From NCBI RefSeq assembly GCF_029168335.1, contig NZ_JARGYC010000006.1, forward strand, positions 41,813 to 105,812: DNA of 64,000 nucleotides, given 5' to 3'. How positions within the stretch are numbered: the stretch's first letter is position 1; each line of letters begins with the position of its first letter. The DNA is from Psychromarinibacter sediminicola (lineage in GTDB: Bacteria; Pseudomonadota; Alphaproteobacteria; Rhodobacterales; Rhodobacteraceae). The notes under the pieces were generated by a model that saw only the letters and a list, made by a program, of their open reading frames with translations, was not told the origin of the DNA and did no database searches. Of the stretch, positions 1-15,120 are shown piece by piece. A program made the translations under genes and the position numbers.

Positions 1-530
1 CGGTGGCTGACGAGGCTGTCCGTCCCGAGATCGGCGAGATGCAGGACCTCGCCGCCGTCGGAGAAGGCGACACAATGCGCGTGCGGGCCCTCCTGGCGGG
101 CGGCATTCGGCCCGCGGCCCGTGCGCCGGAGATAGCGCGGCGGCTGCAACACGCCCGCCGCGACCGGGCAGATCGCGACATCGCCGGTCCAGTACTGGGC
201 AGAGGCCAGGCGCCGCTGCGCCGGGTCGAAGGCCAGATGGCAGGGGAGCTGACCGTCGAGCGGCATGTGCGACAGCGGGGTCAGCCCGCCATCGGCCGAG
301 ACGCGGAACGACACCACGGCGGGGCCGTGATCGGCGAAGACTTCGCGGCCCGCCATCAGGACAACGCCGCAGGGCGACAGGACCAGCGAGGAGGGGTTCA
401 CGCAGTCGGCAAGCAGGTCGGGCGGGCCGAACGCGCCGGTCCCGCCGTCGAAAGGGACGCGGTAGATCCCGGCGCCGTTGCCCGCCATGCCCGCGATGGG
501 ACGGGTATAGGTGCCGACGATCAGGTCCAT
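1..530 (-). CDS. Lactonase family protein (6-phosphogluconolactonase-like beta-propeller), partial
   Basis: The reading frame opens with ATG at 530 (MDLIVGTYTRP) and stays open to the window edge, giving about 176 residues without a stop, so the C-terminal half is missing. The beginning GTYT, the repeated D-G-G-x-T/L turns and the phrase HMPLDGQLPCHLAFDP resemble the seven-bladed lactonase family (Pgl, PF10282). It starts one base after the stop of the RraA-like gene, so it is the last visible member of the sialic-acid-type operon. A lactone hydrolase here would fit an oxidative sugar route in which the dehydrogenase makes a lactone. The family call rests on sequence pattern only; the substrate is inferred from context. 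Confidence 0.75.
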   Translation of the reverse strand, partial: MDLIVGTYTRPIAGMAGNGAGIYRVPFDGGTGAFGPPDLLADCVNPSSLVLSPCGVVLMAGREVFADHGPAVVSFRVSADGGLTPLSHMPLDGQLPCHLAFDPAQRRLASAQYWTGDVAICPVAAGVLQPPRYLRRTGRGPNAARQEGPHAHCVAFSDGGEVLHLADLGTDSLVSH

Positions 531-1223
531 TCACATGATCCCGAAGGTCTCGAACGCCTCGACCGTGCTCATCCCCTCCTGCAGCGCCTTGCGCACGGCG
601 CTTTCGCCGCGCACCTTGTCGAGCGCCGCCGCAACGACCTCGCGCTCGCGGTCCCGGGGCACGCAGAGCACGCCGTCGCAATCGCCGAAGACGATGTCGC
701 CCGGCTCGACCCGGACCCGCCCGATGGCGAGGGGCACGTTGTAGTCGAGCACCTTGCCGCGCGGCGCCTGATCCTGCGCATAGCAGCCGCGGGCGGCCAC
801 CGGCAGGCCCAGTTCGAGGATCTCGTTGCTGTCGCGCACGTAGCCGTCGAGCACCGCGCCCGCGGCCTTCAGGTGCAGCGCGCGGGTCGACATCAGGCCG
901 CCCCAGAGCGCGTAGTCCGGCGACGCGCCGGTGCAGATATAGACGTCGTCGGGTCCGAGGCTGTCGAGCGCCTCGAACATCAGCCCGAAGGGTTTGGCCA
1001 TCAGGGGGGTCCTGGCGCCGTCCGTCGCCTCGTCGAACACGTCCGCCTCCAGCACGGTCATCGCCCGCCCGGCGATGATCATCCGGCGGTCGAGAACCGC
1101 CAGGTAGGGTGGCAGGAACTGGTGGCGCAGCCCCATCCTGTCCATCACGTCGCCGATCACGGCCGAGAACAGCTCGGTCCGCATCAGCGCGAAAAGTTCG
1201 GTATCGGTGGTCCAGTCGGACAT
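531..1223 (-). CDS. RraA family protein / HMG-aldolase-like
   Basis: A 230-residue protein of the RraA fold. The family includes 4-hydroxy-4-methyl-2-oxoglutarate/4-carboxy-4-hydroxy-2-oxoadipate aldolases and the RNase E inhibitor RraA. The signature G-x-x-x-D-G-x-x-R-D is visible at about residues 122-131 (AVLDGYVRDSNEI), with Arg130 and Asp131 in the positions used for pyruvate and metal binding. Being inside a sugar-acid operon, it is more likely a class II pyruvate aldolase or oxaloacetate decarboxylase than an RNase regulator. It follows the dehydrogenase gene after 4 bases and is followed at once by the lactonase gene. The substrate cannot be read from the sequence. Confidence 0.85.
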   Translation of the reverse strand: MSDWTTDTELFALMRTELFSAVIGDVMDRMGLRHQFLPPYLAVLDRRMIIAGRAMTVLEADVFDEATDGARTPLMAKPFGLMFEALDSLGPDDVYICTGASPDYALWGGLMSTRALHLKAAGAVLDGYVRDSNEILELGLPVAARGCYAQDQAPRGKVLDYNVPLAIGRVRVEPGDIVFGDCDGVLCVPRDREREVVAAALDKVRGESAVRKALQEGMSTVEAFETFGIM

Positions 1224-1227
1224 GGTC

Positions 1228-2019
1228 TCAGCCCTTTCGCGGATCGTAGCGGACGAGGTTCAGCACATAGCCCCCGTCGATTTCGAGCGTGGTGCCGGTG
1301 ATGTAGCCGGCGTCGTCGGAGACGAGAAAGGCCGCGACCTTCGCGACATCCGCGGCGCGTCCGAGGCGGGACAGGGGAATCCAGTCCTCGAACCTGTGCT
1401 TGCCGAAGGCGGCGATCTCGGCGGCGTTCGCGTCGGTCTCGATGGCGCCCGGGGCGATGCCGAGCACGCGGATGCCGTGTTCGGCCCATTCCAGGGCCAG
1501 GGCCTTGCCGAGCATGCGCAGCCCCGCCTTGCTGACGGCGTAGTGCGTCAGGCCGAGGCGGGAGACCGACTCGTGGATCGACGAGGTGAACAGGATCACG
1601 CCGCCCCGGCCGTCGGCCACCATCCGGCGGGCGGCGGCGCGAGCGCAGACGAAGCCGCCGCGCAGATTGGTGTTCATCACCCGGTCCCACTCGGCGAGGT
1701 CGAGGTCCATGGCGGCGACGGTGCTTTCCACGCCCGCGTTGTGGATCAGGATGTCGAGGCCGCCGAGCCGGTCGGCACCGGTCCGGATCAGTCGTTCGGC
1801 CTGGTCGGGGACCGAGATGTCGGCGCGGATCGCATGGGCCGTGCCGGCGCCGGCGGCCGCGTCGAGGCGCGCCGTCAGCGCCTCGGCGGCCGGCATTTCG
1901 GCCGGGTCGTGCGTGTTGATCACCACCCGGGCGCCTTCGGCCACCAGTTCCTGCGCGATCCCGGCGCCGATGCCGCGCGACGATCCGGTGATAATGGCGC
2001 GTTTGCCGGGCAGTCTCAT
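1228..2019 (-). CDS. SDR family NAD(P)-dependent oxidoreductase
   Basis: A 263-residue classical short-chain dehydrogenase. The cofactor motif TGSSRGIG is at 11-18, HNAG at 93-96, a catalytic Ser near 147, and Tyr160-x3-Lys164 in YAVSK. It ends with the usual GTTLEIDGGY segment. The ATG at 2019 overlaps the stop of the mannonate-dehydratase homologue in ATGA, so the two are translationally coupled; upstream extension is not needed because the N-terminus MRLPGKRAIITG is canonical. An SDR enzyme, N-acylmannosamine 1-dehydrogenase (EC 1.1.1.233), is known to oxidise N-acylmannosamines to lactones. That activity would fit the neighbouring NanA and lactonase genes, but this is inference. Confidence 0.9.
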   Translation of the reverse strand: MRLPGKRAIITGSSRGIGAGIAQELVAEGARVVINTHDPAEMPAAEALTARLDAAAGAGTAHAIRADISVPDQAERLIRTGADRLGGLDILIHNAGVESTVAAMDLDLAEWDRVMNTNLRGGFVCARAAARRMVADGRGGVILFTSSIHESVSRLGLTHYAVSKAGLRMLGKALALEWAEHGIRVLGIAPGAIETDANAAEIAAFGKHRFEDWIPLSRLGRAADVAKVAAFLVSDDAGYITGTTLEIDGGYVLNLVRYDPRKG

Positions 2020-3083
2020 GCGGGCCGGCCCAGCCGGTCGATCTCTGCCCGCATGTAGCCGAGCGCGAAGGCCATCCCCGCGTGCCAGGGCGCGTCGCAG
2101 GTGACCTGCGGGGTGTGGTCGGGGATCACCGTGCCGTCGAAGCCGTTGCGGTTCAGGATCGACAGGATCCTGGGGATGTCGACGTCGCCCTCGTCGATGA
2201 AGACCTCGTGATACTCCGGCACCTTGCCGCGGACGTTGCGCAGGTGGACATAGCCCACGCGGCCGTCGCGGCTCCAGCGGTCGACATCGGCGTAGATGTC
2301 GCCTTCGGACATCTCCGAGAGCGAGCCGATGCACAGTTCGGCGCGGTTCGCGCGGGACGGGTTGTCGGCAAACATCTTGTCGTAGAACCGCGGCTGCCAG
2401 ACCAGCCGCGCGTGCCCGCGCATCGTCGGCATCGGGGGATCGTCGGGGTGGGCCGCCAGCTGCACACCCGCCGCCTCCGCGACGGGAAGGATCGCGTCGT
2501 GGAAGGCGTGCAGGTTGGCCCAGAGCGTCTCGTGGTCGACGGGCGGTATCGTGCCCTCCGGCGCCTCCGGGTCGTAGACCATGTTCCAGATCATCCCGTT
2601 CGGGATCGGGTCCAGGCCCAGGGCATCGGACTCGACGAAGCCGACGCTGGTGGCCCCGCCCCGGGCGAAGGCCCCCGCGCTCCATCCCGCGACGCCGGCG
2701 ATGGAGAAGTTGTAGCCCATGACCGGGATGCCGACGGCGCCCATGTTGCGGATGATCTGCGCGATGAAATCGAGCTGCGCGTCGCGGCGCGGCCCGCCGA
2801 GCGGCACGTCGTACCAGAGGCCGGGATCGAAGTTCTCGATCGCGGCGAATTCCAGGCCGGCGGCGTTCATCTCGGATTTGAGCCGGGCCAGGGTGTCGCG
2901 CGACCAGACCGATCTGTCGCCCCGGGTGACGCCCCAGCCCATCGCGGTCTGTCCGGGGAGCCGGGGGCCGTCGGCGAAGTAGTCGGTCAGGTGCGCCACG
3001 ATGTGGGTCGCGCCGCATTGCCGGGCGAACGCGTAGTTCTCCGCCGTCAGCATGTGCTTGTAGAGGCCGAGGCCGAGTTTCAT
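2016..3083 (-). CDS. uxuA: Mannonate dehydratase family protein (UxuA-like)
   Basis: A 355-residue TIM-barrel protein of the UxuA family, somewhat shorter than E. coli UxuA (about 394 residues). Family features include the N-terminal KLGLGLYKHMLTAEN, ENFDPGLWYD near 83-92 and the metal-site motif HPDDPP at about 212-217. UxuA removes water from D-mannonate to give 2-keto-3-deoxygluconate. In this operon the natural substrate could instead be a mannonate-like acid, for example N-acetylmannosaminate derived from N-acetylmannosamine; that is inference. Its stop overlaps the SDR start. A 72-base gap separates it from the upstream aldolase gene. Confidence 0.88.
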   Translation of the reverse strand: MKLGLGLYKHMLTAENYAFARQCGATHIVAHLTDYFADGPRLPGQTAMGWGVTRGDRSVWSRDTLARLKSEMNAAGLEFAAIENFDPGLWYDVPLGGPRRDAQLDFIAQIIRNMGAVGIPVMGYNFSIAGVAGWSAGAFARGGATSVGFVESDALGLDPIPNGMIWNMVYDPEAPEGTIPPVDHETLWANLHAFHDAILPVAEAAGVQLAAHPDDPPMPTMRGHARLVWQPRFYDKMFADNPSRANRAELCIGSLSEMSEGDIYADVDRWSRDGRVGYVHLRNVRGKVPEYHEVFIDEGDVDIPRILSILNRNGFDGTVIPDHTPQVTCDAPWHAGMAFALGYMRAEIDRLGRPA

Positions 3084-3155
3084 GTCCTACCCTTTCCTTC
3101 TACGCCGGCATTCGGTGTCCGCTGTCGCCCGCCGGGCCGAAAGGCGCCGCGCGGT

Positions 3156-4091
3156 TCAGGCCACATCGGCGAGCACCGTCTGAACGAGCGCCCGGGCGTC
3201 CGGCATGGCCCGGTCGATGGCGTCCTGCGGGCAGGCGAGATGCGGCCAGAGCATGTACCGCCCGACCGGCGCCCAGCCGCCTAGCACCGCCAACATCTTG
3301 TCGAGCGCCGCGTTGGACACGCCGCATTGCGTGACGAGGGGGACGACGTATCTGTCCAGGAACGCGCGGACACGGGCCTCGTGTTCGACGGCCCGCGCCG
3401 GAGCGCTTTCCGCGAGGGTCCAGATCCGACCGGCGGCGCGCGGCGACAGGCAGGCGACGTTGGAATAGGCGCCGTCCGCGCCGAGGGGGCGTCCGAACGC
3501 CACCGTGTGCCCCGGCACGAAGACCGAGAAATCGGGGAGGCGCTCGCGACGGTCCTTATACCAGTCCGCATCTCCGCCGGGAAGCTTCGCGCCGACGATA
3601 CCCGGCGCGATCCGGCGCAGCTCGGCGATCTCCGACAGGGAAAGCCGGATCTTCGCATGGGGCGGGTTGTAGAGGATCAGGGACAGCCCGTCGGCCGCCT
3701 CCTGCATGCCCTCCGCGAAGCGCGCCAGCTCCGCCATCGAATGCGGCCACCAGTCCGGCAGGATGAACTGCGCGCCCGAGGCGCCGACGGTGCGGATGCG
3801 CGCCAGCCGGTCCCGCGACACCCGCGGGTTGGGGTGGCTGACGCCGATCTGGAACGGCATCTTCGCGTCGACGGCCCGGCGCGCGACGAGTTCCGTCACC
3901 CGATCGAACTCCGCCTCGGTCTGGAGGTGGAATTCGCCCGCCGTCCCGTTCGTGTAGATCCCCGCGACCCCGCTGTCGCAGAGCAGCCGGACCTCCTCGT
4001 CGAGCGCGTCGCAGTCGATCTCGCCCGCCGCCGTGACCGGCAGCAGGACCGTCCCCCAGATGCCGGTCGGACGCTCCGGCCCCGCGCTCAC
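3156..4091 (-). CDS. Dihydrodipicolinate synthase/KDG-aldolase superfamily protein
   Basis: A 311-residue pyruvate-dependent aldolase of the DapA/NanA superfamily. The GxxGE-type motif TNGTAGEF is at 47-54, the catalytic Tyr141 sits in YNPP, and the Schiff-base Lys169 in VGAKLPGGD. The start is taken as GTG at 4091, overlapping the stop of nanA in GTGA; longer frames exist upstream but the extra residues look like out-of-frame nanA sequence. It clearly differs from its nanA neighbour (YNPPHAK versus YNFPAIS), so it is not a recent copy. A second aldolase suggests a second C-C cleavage later in the same pathway, such as cleavage of a 2-keto-3-deoxy sugar acid. Confidence 0.88.
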   Translation of the reverse strand: MSAGPERPTGIWGTVLLPVTAAGEIDCDALDEEVRLLCDSGVAGIYTNGTAGEFHLQTEAEFDRVTELVARRAVDAKMPFQIGVSHPNPRVSRDRLARIRTVGASGAQFILPDWWPHSMAELARFAEGMQEAADGLSLILYNPPHAKIRLSLSEIAELRRIAPGIVGAKLPGGDADWYKDRRERLPDFSVFVPGHTVAFGRPLGADGAYSNVACLSPRAAGRIWTLAESAPARAVEHEARVRAFLDRYVVPLVTQCGVSNAALDKMLAVLGGWAPVGRYMLWPHLACPQDAIDRAMPDARALVQTVLADVA

Positions 4092-4975
4092 CCCTCGGCC
4101 CTCCAGTCGAGGAGTGGGCGGATCGCCGCGGCCAGCACCTCGCGGTCGCCTTGCACCAGTTTCCGGAACGGCCGGCGGCACTGGCCGATCCCGACGCCCA
4201 TCAGCTCCAGGATCGCCTTGGCGCCGGGCATCACCCCGACCCTGATCAGACCGTCGATGGCCGTGTTCGCGATGCGCTGAAGCCGGCGTGCCTCGTCCAT
4301 CCGGTCCGCCCGGATCTCGGAGGCGAGCCGCATGAAGAGATCGCCCATGAAGTTGTAGGTCGTCCCGATCCCGCCCTGCGCGCCGCTGGCCATGCCGGCG
4401 ACGAACATCTCGTCATAGCCGTTATAGACCACGGTTTCGGGGAACGCGGTGCGGATCCGTTCGAGCTGATACATGTCCGACGAGGTGTGCTTGAGCCCGG
4501 CGATGTTCGGATGCGAGAGCAGAAGCTTGAACTCGTCCATGGTGAACGCGGCCGAGATCGCCGGGAAATTGTAGATCACCAGCGGCAGCGCGGCGGCGTC
4601 GGCGATCTCGCAATAGTGGGCGATCACCTCGGACCGGGAGAACGGGTAGTAGAAGGGCGAGATTGCCGACACCGCGGCATAGCCGGACTCTGCCGCGGTC
4701 TCGGCCAGGGCCAGGACATCCGCCGTCGAGGCGGCGCCGACATGGGCGATCAGCTCGAACCTGCCGCCCGCGGCCTCGGACACGGCCGTCAGGTAGTCCG
4801 CCCGTTCGGTGCGCGACTGAAGCATCGCCTCCCCGGAACTGCCCCCCACATACAGCCCGTCCACGCCATGTTCCTGCTGGAGGTCGATCAGGCGCAGGGC
4901 CGCGTCAACGTCGATCGACTCGTCCGCGGCGAAGGGCGTCAGGAGCGAGGTATATATGCCGGGTCTGAGTGCCAT
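4088..4975 (-). CDS. nanA: N-acetylneuraminate lyase (NanA-like)
   Basis: A 295-residue aldolase that matches N-acetylneuraminate lyase better than dihydrodipicolinate synthase. Signs are YVGGSSGEA at 42-50, catalytic Tyr135 in IYNFP, Schiff-base Lys162 in GLKHTS, and NGYDEMFVAGMASGAQGGIG near 185-204, a stretch typical of NanA. The enzyme splits sialic acid into N-acetylmannosamine and pyruvate. It lies directly behind a TRAP transporter of the sialic-acid type and in the same operon as a NanR-like repressor, which strengthens the call. The stop overlaps the next aldolase start by four bases. Confidence 0.85.
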   Translation of the reverse strand: MALRPGIYTSLLTPFAADESIDVDAALRLIDLQQEHGVDGLYVGGSSGEAMLQSRTERADYLTAVSEAAGGRFELIAHVGAASTADVLALAETAAESGYAAVSAISPFYYPFSRSEVIAHYCEIADAAALPLVIYNFPAISAAFTMDEFKLLLSHPNIAGLKHTSSDMYQLERIRTAFPETVVYNGYDEMFVAGMASGAQGGIGTTYNFMGDLFMRLASEIRADRMDEARRLQRIANTAIDGLIRVGVMPGAKAILELMGVGIGQCRRPFRKLVQGDREVLAAAIRPLLDWRAEG

Positions 4976-4998
4976 GATCGCTTTCCGTTATGCCCGGC

Positions 4999-6267
4999 TC
5001 ACATCAGCGTTCGCGGCAGATACGTGACCAGGGAGGGGAAGAAGATGAGCAGGAGGAGAACGACGAACAGCGGCAACAGGAACGGCAGAACGCCGATCGC
5101 CAGATCCCGGAAGGGGATCCGCGCCACCGACGACACGACGAACAGCGCGACCCCCATCGGCGGGGTCAGGATGCCGACCATGAGATTGAAGACCACCACG
5201 ATCCCGAAATGGATCGGGTCGATGCCATAGCTTCGGGCCGCCGGCACCAGCACCGGAACGATCAGGAGCAGGATCGCGAGCGTATCGACGAATGTCCCAA
5301 GCAGGATCAGCATCAGGCTTACGATCAGCAGGAAGGCCACGGGGCTTTCCGAGAACGACAGGAAGAACTGCGCGAATTCCTGCGGCACCTGCTCGCGCGC
5401 CATGATGTAGCCGAACAGCGAGACCCCCATGATCAAGAGGCCGACGGCCGAGGTGTAGATCACGGTGTCGCGCATCGCCTCGGCCAGCTTGGCCAGCGTC
5501 AGTTCACCATAGACCACGAAGCCGAGAAACAGCGCGTAGCTCGCCGCGACCACCGCCGCCTCGGTGGGCGAGAAGATGCCGCCGAAGATGCCGCCGATGA
5601 TGATGAACGGCGTCATCAGCGGAACGAGCGCGCGCAGGAAGACCTTGCCGATCTGCCGCAGGGGCGGCCGCGGCTCTTTCGGATACCCCCGGCGCCGGGC
5701 GATGATATACACCGTCACCATCAGCGTCAGGGCGCAGATCAGGCCGGGCACGATACCGCCCAGGAACAGGCCGCCGATCGAGGTGCTGGCGATGACCCCG
5801 TAGATCACCAGCGGGATGGAGGGCGGAACCAGCGGGCCGATGATCGCCGAGGCGGCGGTCAGGGAACCCGCGAACCGGTCGTCGTAGCCGGCATCCCGCA
5901 TCGCCTTGATCTCCAGCTGGCCCAGCCCCGCCGCATCGGCGACCGCCGAGCCGGACATGCCCGAGAACAGCAGGCTCGCCAGGACGTTGACGTGGCCCAG
6001 CCCGCCGGTGATGTGCCCGACGAGCGACTTGGCGAAGTCGAATATCCGCTCGGTGACGCCGGAGATGTTCATCAGCTGCGCGGTGAGGATGAAGAACGGC
6101 ACCGCGAGCAGCGGGAAGGAGTTCAGCCCCGCGACCATGCGCTGCGCCGCGAAGTTGATCCCCATGCCGTTCACCAGCATGTAGATCACCGAGGCGACGA
6201 TCAGCGTGAAGGCGACCGGCATTCCGGCCAGCAGCAGGGCGAACCAGCCTGCGAAGAGCGTCGGCAT
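4999..6267 (-). CDS. TRAP transporter large permease (DctM/SiaM family)
   Basis: A 422-residue, strongly hydrophobic membrane protein with about a dozen predicted helices, the usual size for the large TRAP subunit. Family segments such as ASLLFSGMSGSAVADAAG, IGPLVPPSIPLVIYG and GTFVDTLAILLLIVPVLVP are present. The start is the ATG at 6267, whose A is also the last base of the small-subunit stop (TGATG); longer frames upstream are low-complexity Arg-rich read-through. With the Q and P subunits it forms a sodium-driven high-affinity importer for an organic acid. The linked genes suggest sialic acid or a related sugar acid. Confidence 0.93.
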   Translation of the reverse strand: MPTLFAGWFALLLAGMPVAFTLIVASVIYMLVNGMGINFAAQRMVAGLNSFPLLAVPFFILTAQLMNISGVTERIFDFAKSLVGHITGGLGHVNVLASLLFSGMSGSAVADAAGLGQLEIKAMRDAGYDDRFAGSLTAASAIIGPLVPPSIPLVIYGVIASTSIGGLFLGGIVPGLICALTLMVTVYIIARRRGYPKEPRPPLRQIGKVFLRALVPLMTPFIIIGGIFGGIFSPTEAAVVAASYALFLGFVVYGELTLAKLAEAMRDTVIYTSAVGLLIMGVSLFGYIMAREQVPQEFAQFFLSFSESPVAFLLIVSLMLILLGTFVDTLAILLLIVPVLVPAARSYGIDPIHFGIVVVFNLMVGILTPPMGVALFVVSSVARIPFRDLAIGVLPFLLPLFVVLLLLIFFPSLVTYLPRTLM

Positions 6268-6773
6268 CAGGCGGCCTCGCCGGTGTCTTCGACCTCGCCG
6301 CGGATCAGCGCGACGACGTCCTGGGTGAAAATGAAGGCGACGCGCAGGGCCATCAGCACGGCACCGACGGGCAGCGCGCCGTACAGCAGCGACTCCGGCA
6401 CGCGCAGGGCCACGGACATCACGCTGTGGGCCCGCATCGTGCCGAGCGTCCCGTACCACGCCAGCACCGCGAGGCAGCCGAAGATCGCGACGTGAAACAC
6501 CAGCTGCAGCGCCAGGCGCAGGCGGACCGGCAGGAGCATGTAGAAGACGTCCATGGTGATATGCGACCTCGACCGGACCACGTCGGCACTGCCGATGGCG
6601 ACCATCCAGACATAGAGATACCGCGCGGCCTCCTCGGTCCAGAACAGCGGGTCGCGCAGGACGAAGCGGGTGATGATCTGAAGCGCGATCGACAGGAACA
6701 CCAGGGCCAGAAGAAGCATGCCCATCGTCTGTTCCGCGCGCAGGATCCTATGTGCGATCCCGTTCATGGACAT
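6267..6773 (-). CDS. TRAP transporter small permease (DctQ/SiaQ family)
   Basis: A 168-residue inner-membrane protein with four hydrophobic segments. The DctQ signature FWTEEAARYLYVWM lies at about 44-57 and is followed by the conserved stretch SRSHITMDVF. It pairs with the large permease gene, sharing one base with its start, and follows the binding-protein gene after 78 bases. Its role is to couple the periplasmic binding protein to the transport subunit. Confidence 0.92.
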   Translation of the reverse strand: MSMNGIAHRILRAEQTMGMLLLALVFLSIALQIITRFVLRDPLFWTEEAARYLYVWMVAIGSADVVRSRSHITMDVFYMLLPVRLRLALQLVFHVAIFGCLAVLAWYGTLGTMRAHSVMSVALRVPESLLYGALPVGAVLMALRVAFIFTQDVVALIRGEVEDTGEAA

Positions 6774-6851
6774 GGCTCTGACGTCGTCCCGGAAGCTGCT
6801 CGGTGCCGATCGGCGGTTCGGCGCCCGCCGGGTGCGGCGGGCGCCTTCGGG

Positions 6852-7826
6852 TCAGTCACCGGCAAGCCCGGTCAGGGAGGCGACCGTGCCGTCGCCGAAG
6901 CGCTCGTCGAGGTCGGCATAGACTGACGCCATCAGTTCGCTCAGGGCCGCGCGATCCGGCTCTGTCACGGTGGCGCCCTCGGCCTCGAAGTCGGCGATGA
7001 GGCTCGCCTCGCGCTCGCGGACGACCCGGTCGTTCACGTCGCCACCGGCTTCGAAGGCCGCCGTCACCAGCGCCTTGTCCTCTTCGCTGAGCGTGTCCCA
7101 GGTCGCCGCCGAGGCGATGATGGCCTGATCCTGCACGAGGTGTCCGGTCAGGGCGAGATGCGACTGCACCTCCATGAACCCCATCGAGTCGATGGTCGGC
7201 AGCGGGTTCTCCTGCCCGTCGACCTGGTTGGTCTGCAGCGCCAGGTAGACCTCGGCGAAGGCCACCGGCGTCGGGCTGGCCCCCATCGCCCGCGCCCATG
7301 ACAAGAGCGGCGCAGAGTTCGGAACCCGCAGGCGCATCCCGTCGAAGTCCGCGGCACTCTCGATCGCCGCGTTCGACGTGGTGTGGCGCGTCCCGAAATA
7401 CCAGTCGTCGATGATCAGCAGCCCGTGCTCGCTGCGAAGCTCGTCCTGGATGCTCTGCCCCCAGTCGGAGGCGATCATCGCCTGCAGGTGCTCGAAGTCC
7501 TGTGCGACATAGGGCGTATCCGCGACAATGGCGCGTTCGACCCAGGGGTTCATGCCGCCGAAGGGGTTCAGCGTGAAGTCCAGCTCGCCGAGCTTCAGCT
7601 GTTCCATCATCTCGGTGAAGTTGCCGAGCTGCGAGTTGGGGAAGATCTCCAGCGTGATGCGCCCGTCCGAGCTTTCTTCCAGCACGCGCGCGGCCTCGAC
7701 CACGCCCTGGTGCTGAGGGTCGCCTTCGGTCCCCTGCATGCCGAGCCTGAGCGTTATCTGATCCTGCGCCAGGACCGGCATGGCGAGGCCGATGGCCAAC
7801 ACCCCTCCGAGTGCAAAATGTTTCAT
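6852..7826 (-). CDS. TRAP transporter substrate-binding protein (DctP/SiaP family)
   Basis: A 324-residue periplasmic binding protein. A signal peptide is visible at 1-20 with cleavage after VLA before QDQITLRLG. Family hallmarks are NPWVERAIVADTPY, the Arg of RLRVPNS that grips the carboxylate of the ligand in this family, and FAEVYLALQTNQVDGQENP. The ATG overlaps the NanR stop in ATGA, so repressor and transporter are co-transcribed. Similarity in pattern to SiaP plus the NanR and NanA neighbours points to a sialic-acid-like ligand. The exact ligand is inferred. Confidence 0.92.
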   Translation of the reverse strand: MKHFALGGVLAIGLAMPVLAQDQITLRLGMQGTEGDPQHQGVVEAARVLEESSDGRITLEIFPNSQLGNFTEMMEQLKLGELDFTLNPFGGMNPWVERAIVADTPYVAQDFEHLQAMIASDWGQSIQDELRSEHGLLIIDDWYFGTRHTTSNAAIESAADFDGMRLRVPNSAPLLSWARAMGASPTPVAFAEVYLALQTNQVDGQENPLPTIDSMGFMEVQSHLALTGHLVQDQAIIASAATWDTLSEEDKALVTAAFEAGGDVNDRVVREREASLIADFEAEGATVTEPDRAALSELMASVYADLDERFGDGTVASLTGLAGD

Positions 7827-8533
7827 GTCGTCTCCTCCTGTTGGGTAGTCCTTTTCTGATTGAACCGCCGCTGCGCATGTTCCAGGTGATCGCGCATCGC
7901 ATCCGCGGCGGCTTCGGGCTCGCGGCGGCGTATCGCATCGACGATCCTCTGATGCCCCGCGAAGGACTGCCGATTGCCCTGCTCTGCCGCGGACGGCAGG
8001 GTGCGCCGGTTGATCATCCAGTCGACGATCGCCTCGTGCATCGCCACGAAAATCGGATTGCCGGGTATCTCCGTCAGCACCCGGTGGAATGCGACATCGG
8101 TGATGGCGAAGGCCCTGGCGCGCGGAATTGCGCGTTCGTTATCCTCCAGCGCGGCTTCCAGGGCGGCGATCTGGTCCGGCGTGGCGTGGCGCGCCGCGTG
8201 ATGCGCGACGCTGACCTCGAGGAACTCGCGGGCCTGTTCGAAATGCTCCACCCCGCTGGGCTGGTCGAGCAGGAGGTTCGCGGTGCCGGCGAGCGCCGAC
8301 ATCATGTCCCGCATCGTCGGGCGCGTGACGCGCGGACGTTCGCCGGTGTGAATCCGGACGAGCCCCATGCGTTCGAGAGAGAACAGGGCCTCGCGGATCG
8401 ACGGCCGCCCGACATCGAAGAGTTCCATCAGGTCGCGTTCCGACGGCAGGTGGCTGCCCTCGGGATAGATCTCGTCCCGGATCATCTCTTCCAGCCTGAG
8501 CCGGACATCGTCTGACAACTTCCGCCGCTTCAT
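7823..8533 (-). CDS. nanR: GntR/FadR-subfamily repressor, NanR-like
   Basis: A 236-residue regulator with an N-terminal winged helix (about 8-75; LPSERDLMELFDVGRPSIRE) and a C-terminal FCD ligand domain. Several phrases agree closely with E. coli NanR as I recall it: NVGRPS-like DVGRPSIREAL, the GERPRV segment, FHRVLTEIPGNPIFVAMH and HQRIVDAIRRREPEAA. The start at 8533 (MKRRKLSDD) is preferred over ATG at 8560 because the latter has no ribosome site and lies against the operator. NanR represses sialic-acid genes and is released by N-acetylneuraminate. GGTATA repeats just upstream support autoregulation. Confidence 0.87.
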   Translation of the reverse strand: MKRRKLSDDVRLRLEEMIRDEIYPEGSHLPSERDLMELFDVGRPSIREALFSLERMGLVRIHTGERPRVTRPTMRDMMSALAGTANLLLDQPSGVEHFEQAREFLEVSVAHHAARHATPDQIAALEAALEDNERAIPRARAFAITDVAFHRVLTEIPGNPIFVAMHEAIVDWMINRRTLPSAAEQGNRQSFAGHQRIVDAIRRREPEAAADAMRDHLEHAQRRFNQKRTTQQEETT

Positions 8534-8563
8534 ATCCGTCCGAATTCCCGATCTGCGCATTTA

Positions 8564-8602
8564 GGTATTAAGGTGTTATACCAGTTGTTAAGGTATTATA
8601 CC
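8564..8602 (-). promoter_or_regulatory. NanR-type operator array (GGTATA repeats) over the operon promoter
   Basis: On the minus strand two GGTATA elements (8597-8602 and 8577-8582) lie exactly 20 bases apart, each facing an imperfect inverted half (GGTATT at 8592-8597, GGTGTT at 8572-8577); a further GGTATT is at 8564-8569. GGTATA repeats are the established NanR site in E. coli. A TATAAT hexamer is embedded in the first palindrome and a TTGACA lies just upstream, so bound repressor would block the promoter. The site is 31-70 bases ahead of the preferred nanR start. Confidence 0.75.
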
Positions 8603-8843
8603 AAAACTGTCAAACGCAATCGCGGGACGTCCGTAAGTCTTTGAAATAAGGAATTTTATCCCTGAGAGGTCGAAGCGCGCCGCAGGCCGACCCCTGAAGG
8701 ATGCGCCACCGCTGCCCCGTCACACGAAGGCGCCGGACGCCCCGACCCTCCCCTCACGACCCTTGCGTCCGCACACGGCGTTGGACGCAAGGCGGCGACT
8801 CATGCAGGCTGCGCCGGACCTGCCAAACGTCGGAGACCTTTCC
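8603..8843. other. Intergenic stretch, no gene recognised
   Basis: The divergent space between the nan-type operon and the secreted protein gene at 8844. The first 60 bases are AT-richer and belong to the nan promoter region. I see no RNA gene, terminator or convincing short reading frame in the rest. Confidence 0.5.
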
Positions 8844-10779: not shown

Positions 10780-11451
10780 ATGGAAGCCGATTTCTCCTTT
10801 TTCGCGCTGTTCTGGCGTGCGTCGTTTGTCGTGCAGTTGGTGATGCTTCTGCTGCTGGCCGCCTCGTTCTGGGCCTGGGCCATCATCATCCGAAAGATCA
10901 TCACCTACCGCGCGGCGCGGCGCGAGGCGGAGGCGTTCGACGCCGTTTTCTGGTCGGGCGAGCCGCTGGACGAGCTCTACGACACGCTGGGCCCGACGCC
11001 GGACGGCGCGTCGGAGCGGATCTTCGCGGCCGGGATGCTGGAATGGCGGCGCTCGCACCGGCAGGACGGCGCGCTGATCGCCGGCGCGCAGAGCCGGATC
11101 GACCGGTCGATGGACGTGGCCATCGCCAAGGAAGCCGAGGACCTGAACCGGGGCCTGCCGTTCCTGGCGACGGTGGGGTCGACGGCGCCCTTCGTGGGGC
11201 TGTTCGGCACCGTCTGGGGCATCATGCGCTCGTTCATCGAGATCGCGGGGCAGCAGAACACCTCGCTCGCCGTGGTCGCGCCGGGGATCGCCGAGGCGCT
11301 GCTGGCGACGGGGCTGGGGCTTCTGGCCGCGATCCCGGCGGTGGTGGCCTATAACAAGCTGTCGTCGGATTCCGACGCCATCGTGGCGAATTACGAGAGC
11401 TTCGCCGACGAGTTCTCGACCATCCTGTCGCGGCAGCTGGACGCGGCCTGA
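10780..11451 (+). CDS. tolQ: Tol-Pal system proton-channel subunit TolQ
   Basis: A 223-residue inner-membrane protein of the MotA/TolQ/ExbB family with three hydrophobic segments (about 15-37, 125-147 and 165-185). The conserved block GLPFLATVGSTAPFVGLFGTVWGI and the following AIAEALLATGLGLLAAIPAV-type helix are present. With TolR it uses the proton motive force to energise TolA, holding the outer membrane to the cell wall during division. Its stop overlaps the tolR ATG by one base. Confidence 0.97.
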   Translation: MEADFSFFALFWRASFVVQLVMLLLLAASFWAWAIIIRKIITYRAARREAEAFDAVFWSGEPLDELYDTLGPTPDGASERIFAAGMLEWRRSHRQDGALIAGAQSRIDRSMDVAIAKEAEDLNRGLPFLATVGSTAPFVGLFGTVWGIMRSFIEIAGQQNTSLAVVAPGIAEALLATGLGLLAAIPAVVAYNKLSSDSDAIVANYESFADEFSTILSRQLDAA

Positions 11452-11933
11452 TGGGGGCCGGGGTCGTCAAGAACGGCGGCGGGGCCAAGCGGCGCGGGCG
11501 CGACCGGCGCCGCCGGGGCAACGCGCGCGCGATGTCCGAGATCAACGTGACGCCCTTCGTCGACGTGATGCTGGTGCTTCTGATCATCTTCATGGTGTCG
11601 GCGCCGCTTCTGACCGTGGGCGTGCCGATCGAGCTGCCCGAGACGGCGGCCGAGGCGCTGCCCGTCGACCAGGAAGAGCCGCTGACGGTGACGATCACCG
11701 ACGAGGGCACGCTGATGATCCAGACGACCGAGATCGCGCGGGATCAGCTGATCGGCCGGCTGCGGGCCATCGCCGCCGAGCGGGTGAGCGACAAGATCTT
11801 CCTGCGCGCCGACGGCCGGATACCCTATGCCCGGGTCGCCGAGGTGATGGGCGCGCTGAACGCCGGCGGGTTCCGCAACATCGGGCTGGTGACGGATACC
11901 GGCGGGCCGTCGCTGGACGACGCGGGCGGCTGA
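11451..11933 (+). CDS. tolR: Tol-Pal system protein TolR
   Basis: A 160-residue ExbD/TolR protein. It has one transmembrane helix at about 38-58 with the essential Asp in TPFVDVMLVLLIIFMV, then a periplasmic domain ending in the DGRIPYARVAEVMGALNAGGF segment. The N-terminus is unusually Arg-rich (about 14-25), typical of a cytoplasmic anchor. It shares one base with tolQ and is followed five bases later by tolA. Confidence 0.96.
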   Translation: MGAGVVKNGGGAKRRGRDRRRRGNARAMSEINVTPFVDVMLVLLIIFMVSAPLLTVGVPIELPETAAEALPVDQEEPLTVTITDEGTLMIQTTEIARDQLIGRLRAIAAERVSDKIFLRADGRIPYARVAEVMGALNAGGFRNIGLVTDTGGPSLDDAGG

Positions 11934-11938
11934 GGACA

Positions 11939-13141
11939 TTGGACACGGGGACGGTCATATCGGGCACGGGCCACGGGCTTTTGCTGGCGTGGCTGGCCTT
12001 CGGCGGGCTGTTGCAGCCGGCGCCGGAGGAACCGGAATTCTCGGTCGCGGACGTGTCGATCATCTCGTCGGAGGAGTTCGCGGCGCTGAGCCGGCCGGAG
12101 GTGGCCGAGGAGGCGCCGGAGGCGGAGACCGCCGCCCCCGAGGTCGAGGAGACGCCGCCGGAGCCGGCCGAGCCGGAGGTTGAGGCGTCGCCGCCGCCGG
12201 CGCCGCGGCCGGAGGAGCCGCCCGAGCAGGCGGAACCGCCGCTCGCCGAGGCGCCGGAGATGCCCGAGGATGTGCCGGTGGAACCCGAGACCCCGCCGGC
12301 GCCGGAACCCGATGTGGTCGAGCCGCCCGAAGAGGTCGCCCCGCCGGCCGAGCCGCCTGCCCCGCCCGAGCCCGAGGTGGCCGAGGAGCCGCAGCCGGAC
12401 GCGGCCCCGCGCGTGGCGCCGGACCCGGTGCCGGAGACGCAGGATTCGCCCGAGATCGCCGACACGCCCGCGCCCCGCGTGGACGAGGAGGCCGACACCG
12501 ACCAGGTCGCCGAAGAACAGCCCGACGCCGCGCCGGAAGAGGCGACGACCGAGATCGTGACCGAGGCGGAGACGCCCTCGGGCGCGCCGGACCGCTCGCC
12601 CGTGCCGCGGGCGCGGCCCGCCGCTCCGGCCCCCGCGCCCGAGACCGAGGCGGTCGAAGGCCCGGTGGAGGTGGCCGAGCCCGACGCGCCAGACGACGCG
12701 CCGGACGACGCGCCCTCGGAGGCGCCCGAGGAGGACCAGCTGGCCGAGGCCATCGCCGGCGCCGTGGCCGAGGCGAACGAGGACGGGGCCCCGGCCGCCA
12801 GTGCCACGCCCGCCGGCCCACCGATGACGCGCGGCGAGGAAGAGGCGCTGCGCGTGGCGGTGCAGCAATGCTGGAACCTCGGCTCCTCCTCGACCGAGGC
12901 GCTGCAGACGACGGTGGTGGTCTCGGTCGACATGAACCGCGACGGGACACCGGACACGGGCTCGATCCGGCTGGTGGCGTCGAACAATGTCGGCAGCGAG
13001 GGCGAGCGCATCGCCTTCGAGGCGGCGCGACGCGCGATCATCCGCTGCGGCGCGCGCGGCTTCCCGCTGCCGGAGGAAAAGTACGGCTACTGGCAAGAGA
13101 TCGAGATGACCTTCAACCCCGAGGGGATGCGGCTGAGATGA
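11939..13141 (+). CDS. tolA: Cell envelope integrity protein TolA
   Basis: A 400-residue protein. It has a single N-terminal membrane helix (about 6-24), a long Pro/Glu/Ala-rich linker (about 40-290) that bridges the periplasm, and a C-terminal domain (about 300-400) with QQCWNLG, TVVVSVDMNRDGTP and FEAARRAIIRCG. The start is TTG at 11939 (TTGGACACG), since the membrane helix begins at once and no ATG lies in frame before it; GAGGA just upstream can act as ribosome site. The stop overlaps the next ATG (ATGA). The C-terminal domain is repeated in the following gene. Confidence 0.92.
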   Translation: MDTGTVISGTGHGLLLAWLAFGGLLQPAPEEPEFSVADVSIISSEEFAALSRPEVAEEAPEAETAAPEVEETPPEPAEPEVEASPPPAPRPEEPPEQAEPPLAEAPEMPEDVPVEPETPPAPEPDVVEPPEEVAPPAEPPAPPEPEVAEEPQPDAAPRVAPDPVPETQDSPEIADTPAPRVDEEADTDQVAEEQPDAAPEEATTEIVTEAETPSGAPDRSPVPRARPAAPAPAPETEAVEGPVEVAEPDAPDDAPDDAPSEAPEEDQLAEAIAGAVAEANEDGAPAASATPAGPPMTRGEEEALRVAVQQCWNLGSSSTEALQTTVVVSVDMNRDGTPDTGSIRLVASNNVGSEGERIAFEAARRAIIRCGARGFPLPEEKYGYWQEIEMTFNPEGMRLR

Positions 13142-13596
13142 GGGGGCGCGTCGTATCGGCATTGCTGACCGCCCTGCTGTCCGGTCTTGTCACCCCATCG
13201 GGGGCAGAGGGTCAACGCCTCGGCCCCGAACCGGGCGAGGCCGGCCTTCCGGTCGACCTGGCCCAGCCCGCGCCGCCGCTCTCGCCCGCGGTCATTGAGG
13301 CGCTCGGACTTGCGGTGCAGCAGTGCTGGACCCTCGGGGCCTCTCCCTCGGGGACGAGACAGACGACGGTGGTGGTTTCCGTCGACATGCGCCGGGACGG
13401 GACACCGGATAACGGCTCGATCCGGCTTGTGAGCTCGGAAACCCCTGGCGGCGAGGCCGAGCGTATCGCCTTCGAGGCCGCGCGCCGCGCGATCATTCGG
13501 TGCGGGGCGCGGGGCTTCCCGCTGCCGGAAGAGAAATACCCACATTGGAAGAGAATCGAGATGACCTTCGATCCCGAGGGAGCGCACCGGCAATGA
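13138..13596 (+). CDS. Secreted stand-alone TolA C-terminal-domain protein
   Basis: A 152-residue protein with a signal peptide (about 1-25, MRGRVVSALLTALLSG...) followed by a domain nearly the same as the end of TolA: QQCWTLG, TVVVSVDMRRDGTPDNGSIR, AFEAARRAIIRCGARGFPLP and IEMTFDPEG. It lacks the membrane anchor and Pro/Glu linker. Similarity is high in DNA as well as protein, which points to a fairly recent tandem duplication of the tolA 3' end with a new secretion signal. The ATG at 13138 overlaps the tolA stop. A free periplasmic domain could compete with or assist TolA in contacting TolB or Pal; that is inference. Confidence 0.82.
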   Translation: MRGRVVSALLTALLSGLVTPSGAEGQRLGPEPGEAGLPVDLAQPAPPLSPAVIEALGLAVQQCWTLGASPSGTRQTTVVVSVDMRRDGTPDNGSIRLVSSETPGGEAERIAFEAARRAIIRCGARGFPLPEEKYPHWKRIEMTFDPEGAHRQ

Positions 13597-13794
13597 AAGG
13601 GTCCGCGATGTCTTCCTACGGGGCACGGTGCATGGGCAAGGCCATCTTTCGCCCCGTCGTCGCACTCGCACCCGCGAACCGAACGACTCCATTAACGGTA
13701 GATAAACCGTCCCGCCGCGCCATATGGTGGCCTCGAACCCCTGCGAGCCGCCGCTCCGCGCCAGTGACGTGACAATCGAGAGGGTATTTCACGC

Positions 13795-15120
13795 ATGATC
13801 CGCCTTTTGATCCTGACCCTTGCCCTGGGCCTGGCCGCCGCCGGTCCCGCCGCCGCGCAGGAGCGCGGGCCGCTCCGGATCGAGATCACCGAGGGCGTGA
13901 TCGAGCCTCTGCCCTTCGCGATCCCGCAATTCGTCCCGGAAAATCCCGGCGCCGCCGAGATGGCGCGGCAGATCACCCGCGTGGTCTCGGCCGACCTGAC
14001 CGGCACGGGGCTGTTCCGCGAGATCCCGCGCGACGCCTATATCTCGGACGTCACCAGCTTTCAGAGCCCGGTGCAGTATTCCGACTGGAAGGCGATCAAC
14101 GCGCAGGCGCTGATCACCGGGGCGGTGCAGACCACGAATGACGGCCGGGTGATCGTGAAGTTCCGCCTGTTCGACGTGTTCGCCGAGAACCAGCTGGGCG
14201 ACGGACTGCAATTCGCGGCCAGCCAGGACAGCTGGCGGCGGATGGCGCACAAGGTGGCCGACGCGGTCTATTCCCGGATCACCGGCGAGGGCGCCTATTT
14301 CGACAGCCGCGTCGTGTTCGTCGCCTCCAGCGGGCCGAAGGACGCCCGGCGCACGCGGCTGGCGATCATGGATTACGACGGCGCGAACGTGGAATACCTG
14401 ACCGACAGCGGCAACCTGGTGCTGGCGCCGCGGTTTTCGCCCGACGGTAAGCGGGTGCTCTACACCAGCTACGAGACCGGCAGCCCGCGCATCCACATCC
14501 TGGACGTCGACACCGTCGAGCGCCGGGTGCTGGAACAGGAGGCCGGCGCGATGTCGGTGGGGCCCTCCTTTACCCCCGACGGCAACAAGGTGATCTACTC
14601 GCTGGCGCGCGGCGGCAACTCGGACCTCTACGAGCTGAACCTTCAGACCGGCGCGACGCGGCAGCTGACCAGCGCACCGTCGATCGAGACCTCGCCCAGC
14701 GTGTCGCCCGACGGCCGCTTCATCGTGTTCGAAAGCGACCGCTCGGGCAGCCAGCAGCTCTATGTGATGCCCGCGGGCGGCGGCGAGGCGCGGCGGATCA
14801 GCTCGGGCGCGGGACGCTACGGCGCGCCCGTGTGGTCGCCGCGGGGCGACATGATCGCCTTCGTGAAACAGAACAAGGGCCGGTTCCATATCGGCGTGAT
14901 GCGGACCGACGGGTCCGAAGAACGCCTGCTGACGGCGTCCTTCCTGGACGAAAGCCCGACCTGGTCGCCCAACGGCCGCGTGATCATGTTCACCCGCGAG
15001 AGCCAGGGCGCCTCGGGGCAGCCGTCGCTCTATTCCGTCGACATCACCGGGCGCAACCTGCGCCGCGTCCCGCTGGAGACGGCGGCCTCCGATCCGACGT
15101 GGTCGCCGCTGCTGCAATGA
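13795..15120 (+). CDS. tolB: Tol-Pal system beta-propeller protein TolB
   Basis: A 441-residue periplasmic protein: signal peptide about 1-21 (ending AAAQ), an N-terminal TolB_N domain (about 25-150), then a six-bladed WD40-like propeller with repeated [36 protein letters not shown] and [11 protein letters not shown] strands. TolB links Pal, TolA and peptidoglycan-bound partners. It sits 198 bases after the small TolA-domain gene and 76 bases before pal. Confidence 0.97.

Follow-up and report, generated by a model that had tools for sequence, protein, structure and literature searches.

Which acid is taken up by the sialic-acid-type operon of Psychromarinibacter sediminicola, and by which route is it degraded? 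The operon lies at the left edge of the analysed stretch of contig NZ_JARGYC010000006.1 (64,000 nucleotides; hereafter, the window) and comprises ten genes, all on the minus strand, which the open reading frame (ORF) list and the family scans place in the order NanR-SiaPQM-NanA-DapA2-UxuA-SDR-RraA-lactonase (SDR, short-chain dehydrogenase/reductase). This single same-strand run with its GGTATA operator had been described in an original prediction, and was confirmed by the ORFs and the family scans. The prediction had read the operon as a phosphorylation-free route for N-acetylneuraminic acid (Neu5Ac). Judged from the sequence, the operon would serve for the uptake and breakdown of a nonulosonic acid, the most probable candidate being 2-keto-3-deoxynononic acid (Kdn), the deaminated, nitrogen-free sialic acid, and the D-mannose released would be oxidised via mannonate and 2-keto-3-deoxygluconate (KDG) without phosphorylated sugars; we give this reading about an even chance of being correct. 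The features of the locus are as follows.

8577-8602, minus strand: operator of the NanR type ahead of nanR, with a pair of GGTATAA sites 20 bases apart
7823-8560, minus strand: NanR-like GntR/FCD repressor (NCBIfam NF003011, 290.5 bits; cut-off 260)
6852-7826, minus strand: SiaP-like solute-binding protein (DctP) of a tripartite ATP-independent periplasmic (TRAP) transporter; among solved structures, it is closest to SiaP proteins that bind sialic acid (best E 3.6e-85)
6267-6773, minus strand: SiaQ-like TRAP small permease (DctQ; PF04290, 105 bits)
4999-6267, minus strand: SiaM-like TRAP large permease (DctM; PF06808, TIGR00786)
4088-4975, minus strand: NanA, N-acetylneuraminate lyase (NF003164, 331.8 bits; cut-off 281)
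3156-4091, minus strand: DapA2, divergent lyase of the dihydrodipicolinate synthase/N-acetylneuraminate lyase family (PF00701, 73.1 bits)
2016-3083, minus strand: UxuA-like dehydratase, predicted mannonate dehydratase (PF03786, 147.1 bits)
1228-2019, minus strand: SDR that matches glucose 1-dehydrogenases of the SDR family best, both in the PDB and in NCBIfam; predicted to act as an aldose (mannose) 1-dehydrogenase
531-1223, minus strand: RraA-like protein (PF03737, 112.7 bits), the predicted KDG aldolase (class II)
1-530, extending past the left edge of the window, minus strand: seven-bladed propeller lactonase (PF10282, 108.8 bits on the partial protein)

The lactonase gene, of which 176 of the 355 codons lie inside the window (the full 355-aa ORF is at L012:11276-12343), is the final gene of the unit, and a convergent ORF comes next. 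At the other end, GGTATA occurs at 8577-8582 and 8597-8602, just upstream of nanR. The hexamer was found eight times in the window against 1.9 expected, a count reached by one of 100 shuffles. The longer operator pattern with up to two mismatches gave two matches in the whole genome, both at this locus (reversed-pattern control, one match); a second gene set under the same operator, which the original prediction had considered, was not found in the genome. The operon is thus predicted to have a NanR-type repressor with a GGTATA operator, a feature shared with the canonical Nan operon.

The window unites two modules that occur separately in relatives: an uptake-and-lyase cassette and a portable sugar-oxidation block. 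This two-module reading follows from the fact that the cassette stands alone in Sinorhizobium (S.) medicae and the block alone in G352, the closest relative in the same family. Plasmid pMl3 of S. medicae carries the annotated order nanR-siaP-siaQ-siaM-DapA2-nanA (64, 67, 52, 76, 53, and 60% identical to the window proteins, respectively) without adjoining oxidative genes, and a similar GGTATAA...TTATACC site precedes its nanR. In G352, the order UxuA-SDR-RraA-lactonase is kept (85, 80, 84, and 63% identity, respectively), and NanA, DapA2, and SiaPQM have no match in the 19.5 kb read there; the neighbours of the block are a GntR/FCD regulator and, as components of an ATP-binding cassette (ABC) importer, an ATPase and a ribose-type permease (PF02653). 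DapA2 therefore belongs to the uptake cassette. Its candidacy as the KDG aldolase is weakened, because it stands with SiaPQM and NanA where the UxuA block is absent, and the earlier assignment of this second aldolase to the oxidative block is unlikely as such.

How widely the two modules are distributed was surveyed by similarity searches. Homologues of the solute-binding protein and DapA2 appear to share contigs of 18248, 9864, 8260, 7249, 558645, and 161424 bases; for the UxuA-like and solute-binding proteins, the only contig common to the 120 listed matches of each, compared by eye, is that of the window (105812). The UxuA-like protein was found in two of 390 order genomes (E 1e-60), two of 385 class genomes (E 1e-120), and one of 398 phylum genomes (E 1e-130), and DapA2 in three of the 390 order genomes (E 1e-60) and two of the 385 class genomes (E 1e-40), with the own genome included each time.

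Other arrangements were also found among relatives. At two loci in order genomes (L123:3832-14774 and L124:4583-15538), DapA2 (about 60% identity) is accompanied by an SDR and by proteins resembling NanA (32-33%) and RraA (41%); L123, the one checked, further encodes a class III aminotransferase and a lactonase of the SMP-30 type, and the pair is perhaps another oxidative nonulosonate locus. In G901 (1.6 Mb), a genome of the class to which the window belongs, NanA and NanE, both above cut-offs, are encoded within a few kilobases of a DapA2 homologue (48%; L101:695-14721); the same stretch of about 14 kb contains two BNR-repeat (sialidase-type) genes and a NanK-like ROK protein below cut-off, and, by eye, PanB-like and PhyH-like genes lie between. 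On plasmid pT173e of Ensifer canadensis (L108:2672-12031), a ribose-type ABC importer is clustered with RraA, a full-length UxuA, the UxuA-like protein, an SDR, and a lactonase of the SMP-30 type. Paracoccus and Variovorax plasmid loci with RraA gave no UxuA-like or lactonase match, and G891 has a UxuA-like gene in a different setting.

Given such modularity, the cassette and the block might be chance neighbours without a metabolic link, the block being fed by other genes. The separate occurrence of the modules, the single fused case, and the gap of 72 bases between DapA2 and UxuA are in keeping with this explanation. However, the ten genes stand on one strand behind a single operator, neighbours overlapping by no more than 4 bases or being separated by 78 bases at the most, and the block here has no transporter of its own, unlike that of G352. 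No promoter- or terminator-like match was found at the DapA2-UxuA junction either, by a scan that also found no promoter upstream of nanR. We regard a chance neighbourhood as very improbable.

The proteins of the oxidative block suggest what the united operon may do. The UxuA-like protein matches the solved mannonate dehydratase 3ban (E 2.7e-36, residues 58-331), and the HPDDPP, C, H.RNV, and PDH motifs, which we take to be those of the metal site, are in register between the two. The SDR scores just under the NCBIfam glucose 1-dehydrogenase cut-off (213.8 versus 215). Homologues of an SDR, a lactonase, and a mannonate dehydratase thus stand in one unit, the dehydratase and the SDR under NCBIfam cut-offs. 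RraA and DapA2 are both under the curated cut-offs as KDG aldolase candidates; RraA is put forward for this role on the grounds of its association with the block and of a GxxRD motif, seen by eye and presumably functional in RraA-like aldolases.

The sugar oxidised by the block can be approached from the loci in which the block occurs elsewhere. Among the matches listed, 80 UxuA-like loci were available, which do not include the close Proteobacterial relatives, and 17 of them contain an SDR at least 40% identical to that of the window (hereafter, close-SDR loci). An RraA homologue (57-61%) is present in 16 of the 17, immediately beside the SDR in six. GH38, GH92, and GH76 are families acting on alpha-mannosides. 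Matches to them were found in 16 of the 17 close-SDR loci versus 7 of the 63 other listed loci, a contrast that does not consist of independent tests, as the close-SDR loci are longer on average (19.4 versus 15.2 kb), and that is further tempered by the facts that the queries were taken from the 17 loci themselves and that 16 of the 17 are, by record title, Bacteroidota and not independent lineages. A Pfam census of 139 of the 153 neighbouring ORFs (14 were dropped for size; the 25 commonest families were shown per half) gave GH38 in 19 ORFs, GH76 in five, GH92 in at least three, and GH3 in at least one, GH38 being the commonest glycosidase among the families shown. Homologues of KdgK and Eda, found in three of the 17 loci and backed by family matches in one of these, fit KDG as the product. 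In the window itself, the only link of the block to mannose release is NanA. Because the block is found in the absence of NanA, next to a ribose-type ABC importer in one case and close to alpha-mannosidase families in others, the oxidised sugar is more likely D-mannose than N-acetylmannosamine (ManNAc). Cultured species with homologues of the block include Maribacter polysiphoniae, Arenibacter palladensis, and Sunxiuqinia elliptica.

A separate observation concerns nine of the 17 close-SDR loci (L032, L037, L042, L043, L054, L055, L072, L077, and L094), where genes for a family III CoA-transferase and an enoyl-CoA hydratase accompany those for sugar oxidation.

These results bear directly on the route first proposed, in which NanA frees ManNAc from imported Neu5Ac, the SDR turns this ManNAc into N-acetylmannosaminolactone, and further steps by the lactonase, UxuA, and the aldolases lead to pyruvate. 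The family matches of NanR, SiaP, and NanA agree with it, as does the lack of a NanE match in the genome. The occurrence of the SDR/UxuA block without NanA in the settings described above speaks against it, and the dehydration of a 2-acetamido acid by UxuA would, to our knowledge, be new chemistry. In its favour, SDR enzymes that act as ManNAc dehydrogenases are reported in PMC12133307. Marine chitin oxidation by the Ong cluster, as described in PMC9537276, resembles the predicted pathway in that a non-phosphorylated sugar acid is led to KDG; unlike it, the N-acetyl group is handled there by a deacetylase and a pyridoxal phosphate (PLP) deaminase, and neither family was found in the operon scans. 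We therefore consider the Neu5Ac route quite improbable. Of the phosphorylation-free sialic acid route, the NanA-fed oxidative part remains plausible, with no NanE found, and the part that has become less likely is the action of the SDR on ManNAc.

The rest of the genome (completeness given as 99.99%) was searched for the canonical pathway, as the original prediction had proposed. NanE (PF04131) gave no match genome-wide with a positive Escherichia (E.) coli control; the standard ManNAc route through NanE was therefore not found. The earlier statement that the operon lacks a ManNAc kinase and epimerase holds in the family scans of the operon, with ROK kinases (nanK) left unsearched genome-wide. 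The sole AGE family protein is nearer to D-mannose isomerase (308.5 bits) than to the N-acylglucosamine epimerase model (27.4 bits), both under cut-offs, and a bypass by an N-acetylglucosamine 2-epimerase was accordingly rejected. For nagA, there is one match above cut-off on another contig, and one below cut-off; the single PF01182 match in the genome was discarded as NagB and is probably 6-phosphogluconolactonase, because its gene directly follows that of glucose-6-phosphate dehydrogenase. In comparison with the canonical Nan/Sia operon (NanA-NanK-NanE with NagAB), the NanR-type repressor with GGTATA, the SiaPQM-type importer, and NanA are alike; unlike it, there is no NanE match in the genome and no kinase or epimerase in the operon, and an oxidative block follows NanA and DapA2. 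Elsewhere in the genome (contig C22, L115:6530-10809), a BNR_2 protein (181 bits) is encoded next to PdxA, a further PF00701 lyase, and an iron alcohol dehydrogenase.

Should mannose be the sugar that the block burns, the acid would be Kdn, because Kdn is what NanA splits to give mannose. In the predicted scheme, whose substrates are all inferred, NanR would repress the operon until an inducer is present, and uptake of the acid would fall to the SiaPQM-like TRAP system, as judged from their families. From Kdn, NanA would yield pyruvate and D-mannose; the SDR would convert the latter to mannonolactone, from which the PF10282 lactonase would form mannonate by ring opening, the UxuA-like enzyme would dehydrate mannonate to KDG, and RraA, the least certain assignment, would cleave KDG to pyruvate and glyceraldehyde. 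NanA has N-acetylneuraminate lyases (NALs) as its best PDB matches, and retains the Schiff-base lysine, the active-site tyrosine, and the YNGYDE motif, which we assume to have their usual catalytic roles; it is under the stricter TIGR00683 cut-off (263.3 versus 382). DapA2 retains the lysine and the tyrosine without the YNGYDE motif, and is the second lyase of the uptake cassette; it may act on a different 2-keto-3-deoxy acid.

Parallels to this scheme are found in published work. Microalgae and certain bacteria are reported to contain Kdn, among them Emiliania huxleyi, Prymnesium parvum, and Sinorhizobium fredii, and NanA of Haemophilus (H.) influenzae is stated to take part in Kdn degradation (PMC7845648). 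Kdn use by H. influenzae and by E. coli carrying siaPQM likewise involves SiaPQM-type uptake and implies NanA; unlike the window operon, theirs is Neu5Ac machinery that binds Kdn weakly (42 uM), and the accounts in PMC7845648 and PMC4646407, so far as they go, describe no dedicated mannose oxidation. In synthesis by NALs of groups 1 and 2, mannose is reported to support 91% (E. coli enzyme) and 95% (Lp enzyme) of the activity seen with ManNAc, as against 10% with a group 3 enzyme (PMC4016182). A cell-free mannose route of aldohexose dehydrogenase, mannonate dehydratase, and KDG aldolase is reported to work in vitro; the enzymes are from Thermoplasma, where the genes of the dehydrogenase and the dehydratase are direct neighbours, and the same source stated in 2019 that no mannose-specific oxidative pathway had yet been discovered (PMC6901390). 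The AldT-ManD-KDG aldolase route of Thermoplasma acidophilum is likened to the window unit by pathway logic, in that an SDR, a UxuA-family dehydratase, and an aldolase lead from mannose to pyruvate and glyceraldehyde; the window unit differs in being bacterial, in having its own lactonase and RraA, and in the predicted origin of mannose from a nonulosonic acid. In haloarchaea, manD and RraA genes are described in mannanase clusters, and mannose oxidation to KDG was predicted in 2024 (PMC10963439).

Several points weigh against the Kdn reading. The binding protein keeps the carboxylate-binding arginines and the asparagine of SiaP in the alignments; when the SiaP numbering was transferred by eye, the equivalents of D49, E67, and R70 were found to be F, P, and G. 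This triplet occurs in 17 of the 27 aligned rows, including that of the window, with D/E/R in two Vibrio rows and other residues in eight. D49 of SiaP is described as holding the glycerol tail of Neu5Ac and R70 (PMC11550005), its equivalent as contacting O7 (PMC4089482), and Kdn binding by classical SiaP as more than 300-fold weaker than that of Neu5Ac (PMC4646407). The residue changes argue for a different ligand or binding mode; they do not single out Kdn, because Kdn and Neu5Ac share the same tail. The remaining points concern the enzymes and the comparison. The scheme would require the window NanA to belong to the NAL groups that accept mannose, and human NPL is reported to cleave Kdn with the lowest efficiency among its substrates (PMC13220900). 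The UxuA-like protein does not reach either of the NCBIfam cut-offs for mannonate dehydratase, the lactonase homologues found in 14 of the 17 close-SDR loci are only 25-32% identical, and a route from Kdn to mannose leaves DapA2 without a step. Neither a NanA nor a DapA2 homologue was found near the UxuA-like gene in any of the 80 listed loci, and the fused operon was seen in a single genome.

The imported ligand may be a different 2-keto-3-deoxy sugar acid, such as 3-deoxy-D-manno-octulosonic acid (Kdo) or a nonulosonic acid other than Kdn; in that case, two related acids would be cleaved by NanA and DapA2, and the aldose would not be mannose. The changed tail-binding residues and the presence of two lyases in one cassette are in favour of this explanation, as is the company of DapA2 with NanA-like, SDR, and RraA-like genes in two relatives (with SMP-30 in L123). 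The relatives in Ensifer canadensis (UxuA-like, 53%; RraA, 58%) point the same way: they cluster with a full-length UxuA (391 bits) that is 25% identical to the UxuA-like protein, which suggests that the two may differ in substrate there. On the other side stand the mannosidase association of the block and, for Kdo, the report that D-arabinose, its cleavage product, is used at only 1-1.5% by the NALs tested (PMC4016182). On balance, we find this alternative doubtful, and retain Kdn as the most probable acid.

Outside the operon, ruvB lies on one side, and tolQ- and tolB-type genes lie on the other (window 10780-15120, L012:9394-10419). When 20 neighbour proteins that had been named by eye were checked by family scan, the expected family type was found in 19; a supposed ybgC beside tolQ had no match, and this label was dropped.

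In the open-access literature searched, no dedicated bacterial Kdn route, Kdn-to-mannonate route, or gene set of this kind was found. It is possible, at somewhat less than an even chance, that this is a dedicated Kdn catabolic operon, in which a rhizobial uptake-and-lyase cassette is fused to a bacterial oxidative mannose module and which needs no kinase, epimerase, deacetylase, or deaminase, and that the same module constitutes an undescribed oxidative mannose pathway of mannosidase-bearing Bacteroidota. If so, a whole sialic acid would be converted to pyruvate and glyceraldehyde. The operon supplies named proteins with which two gaps, the bacterial Kdn route and the oxidative mannose pathway, may be tested.

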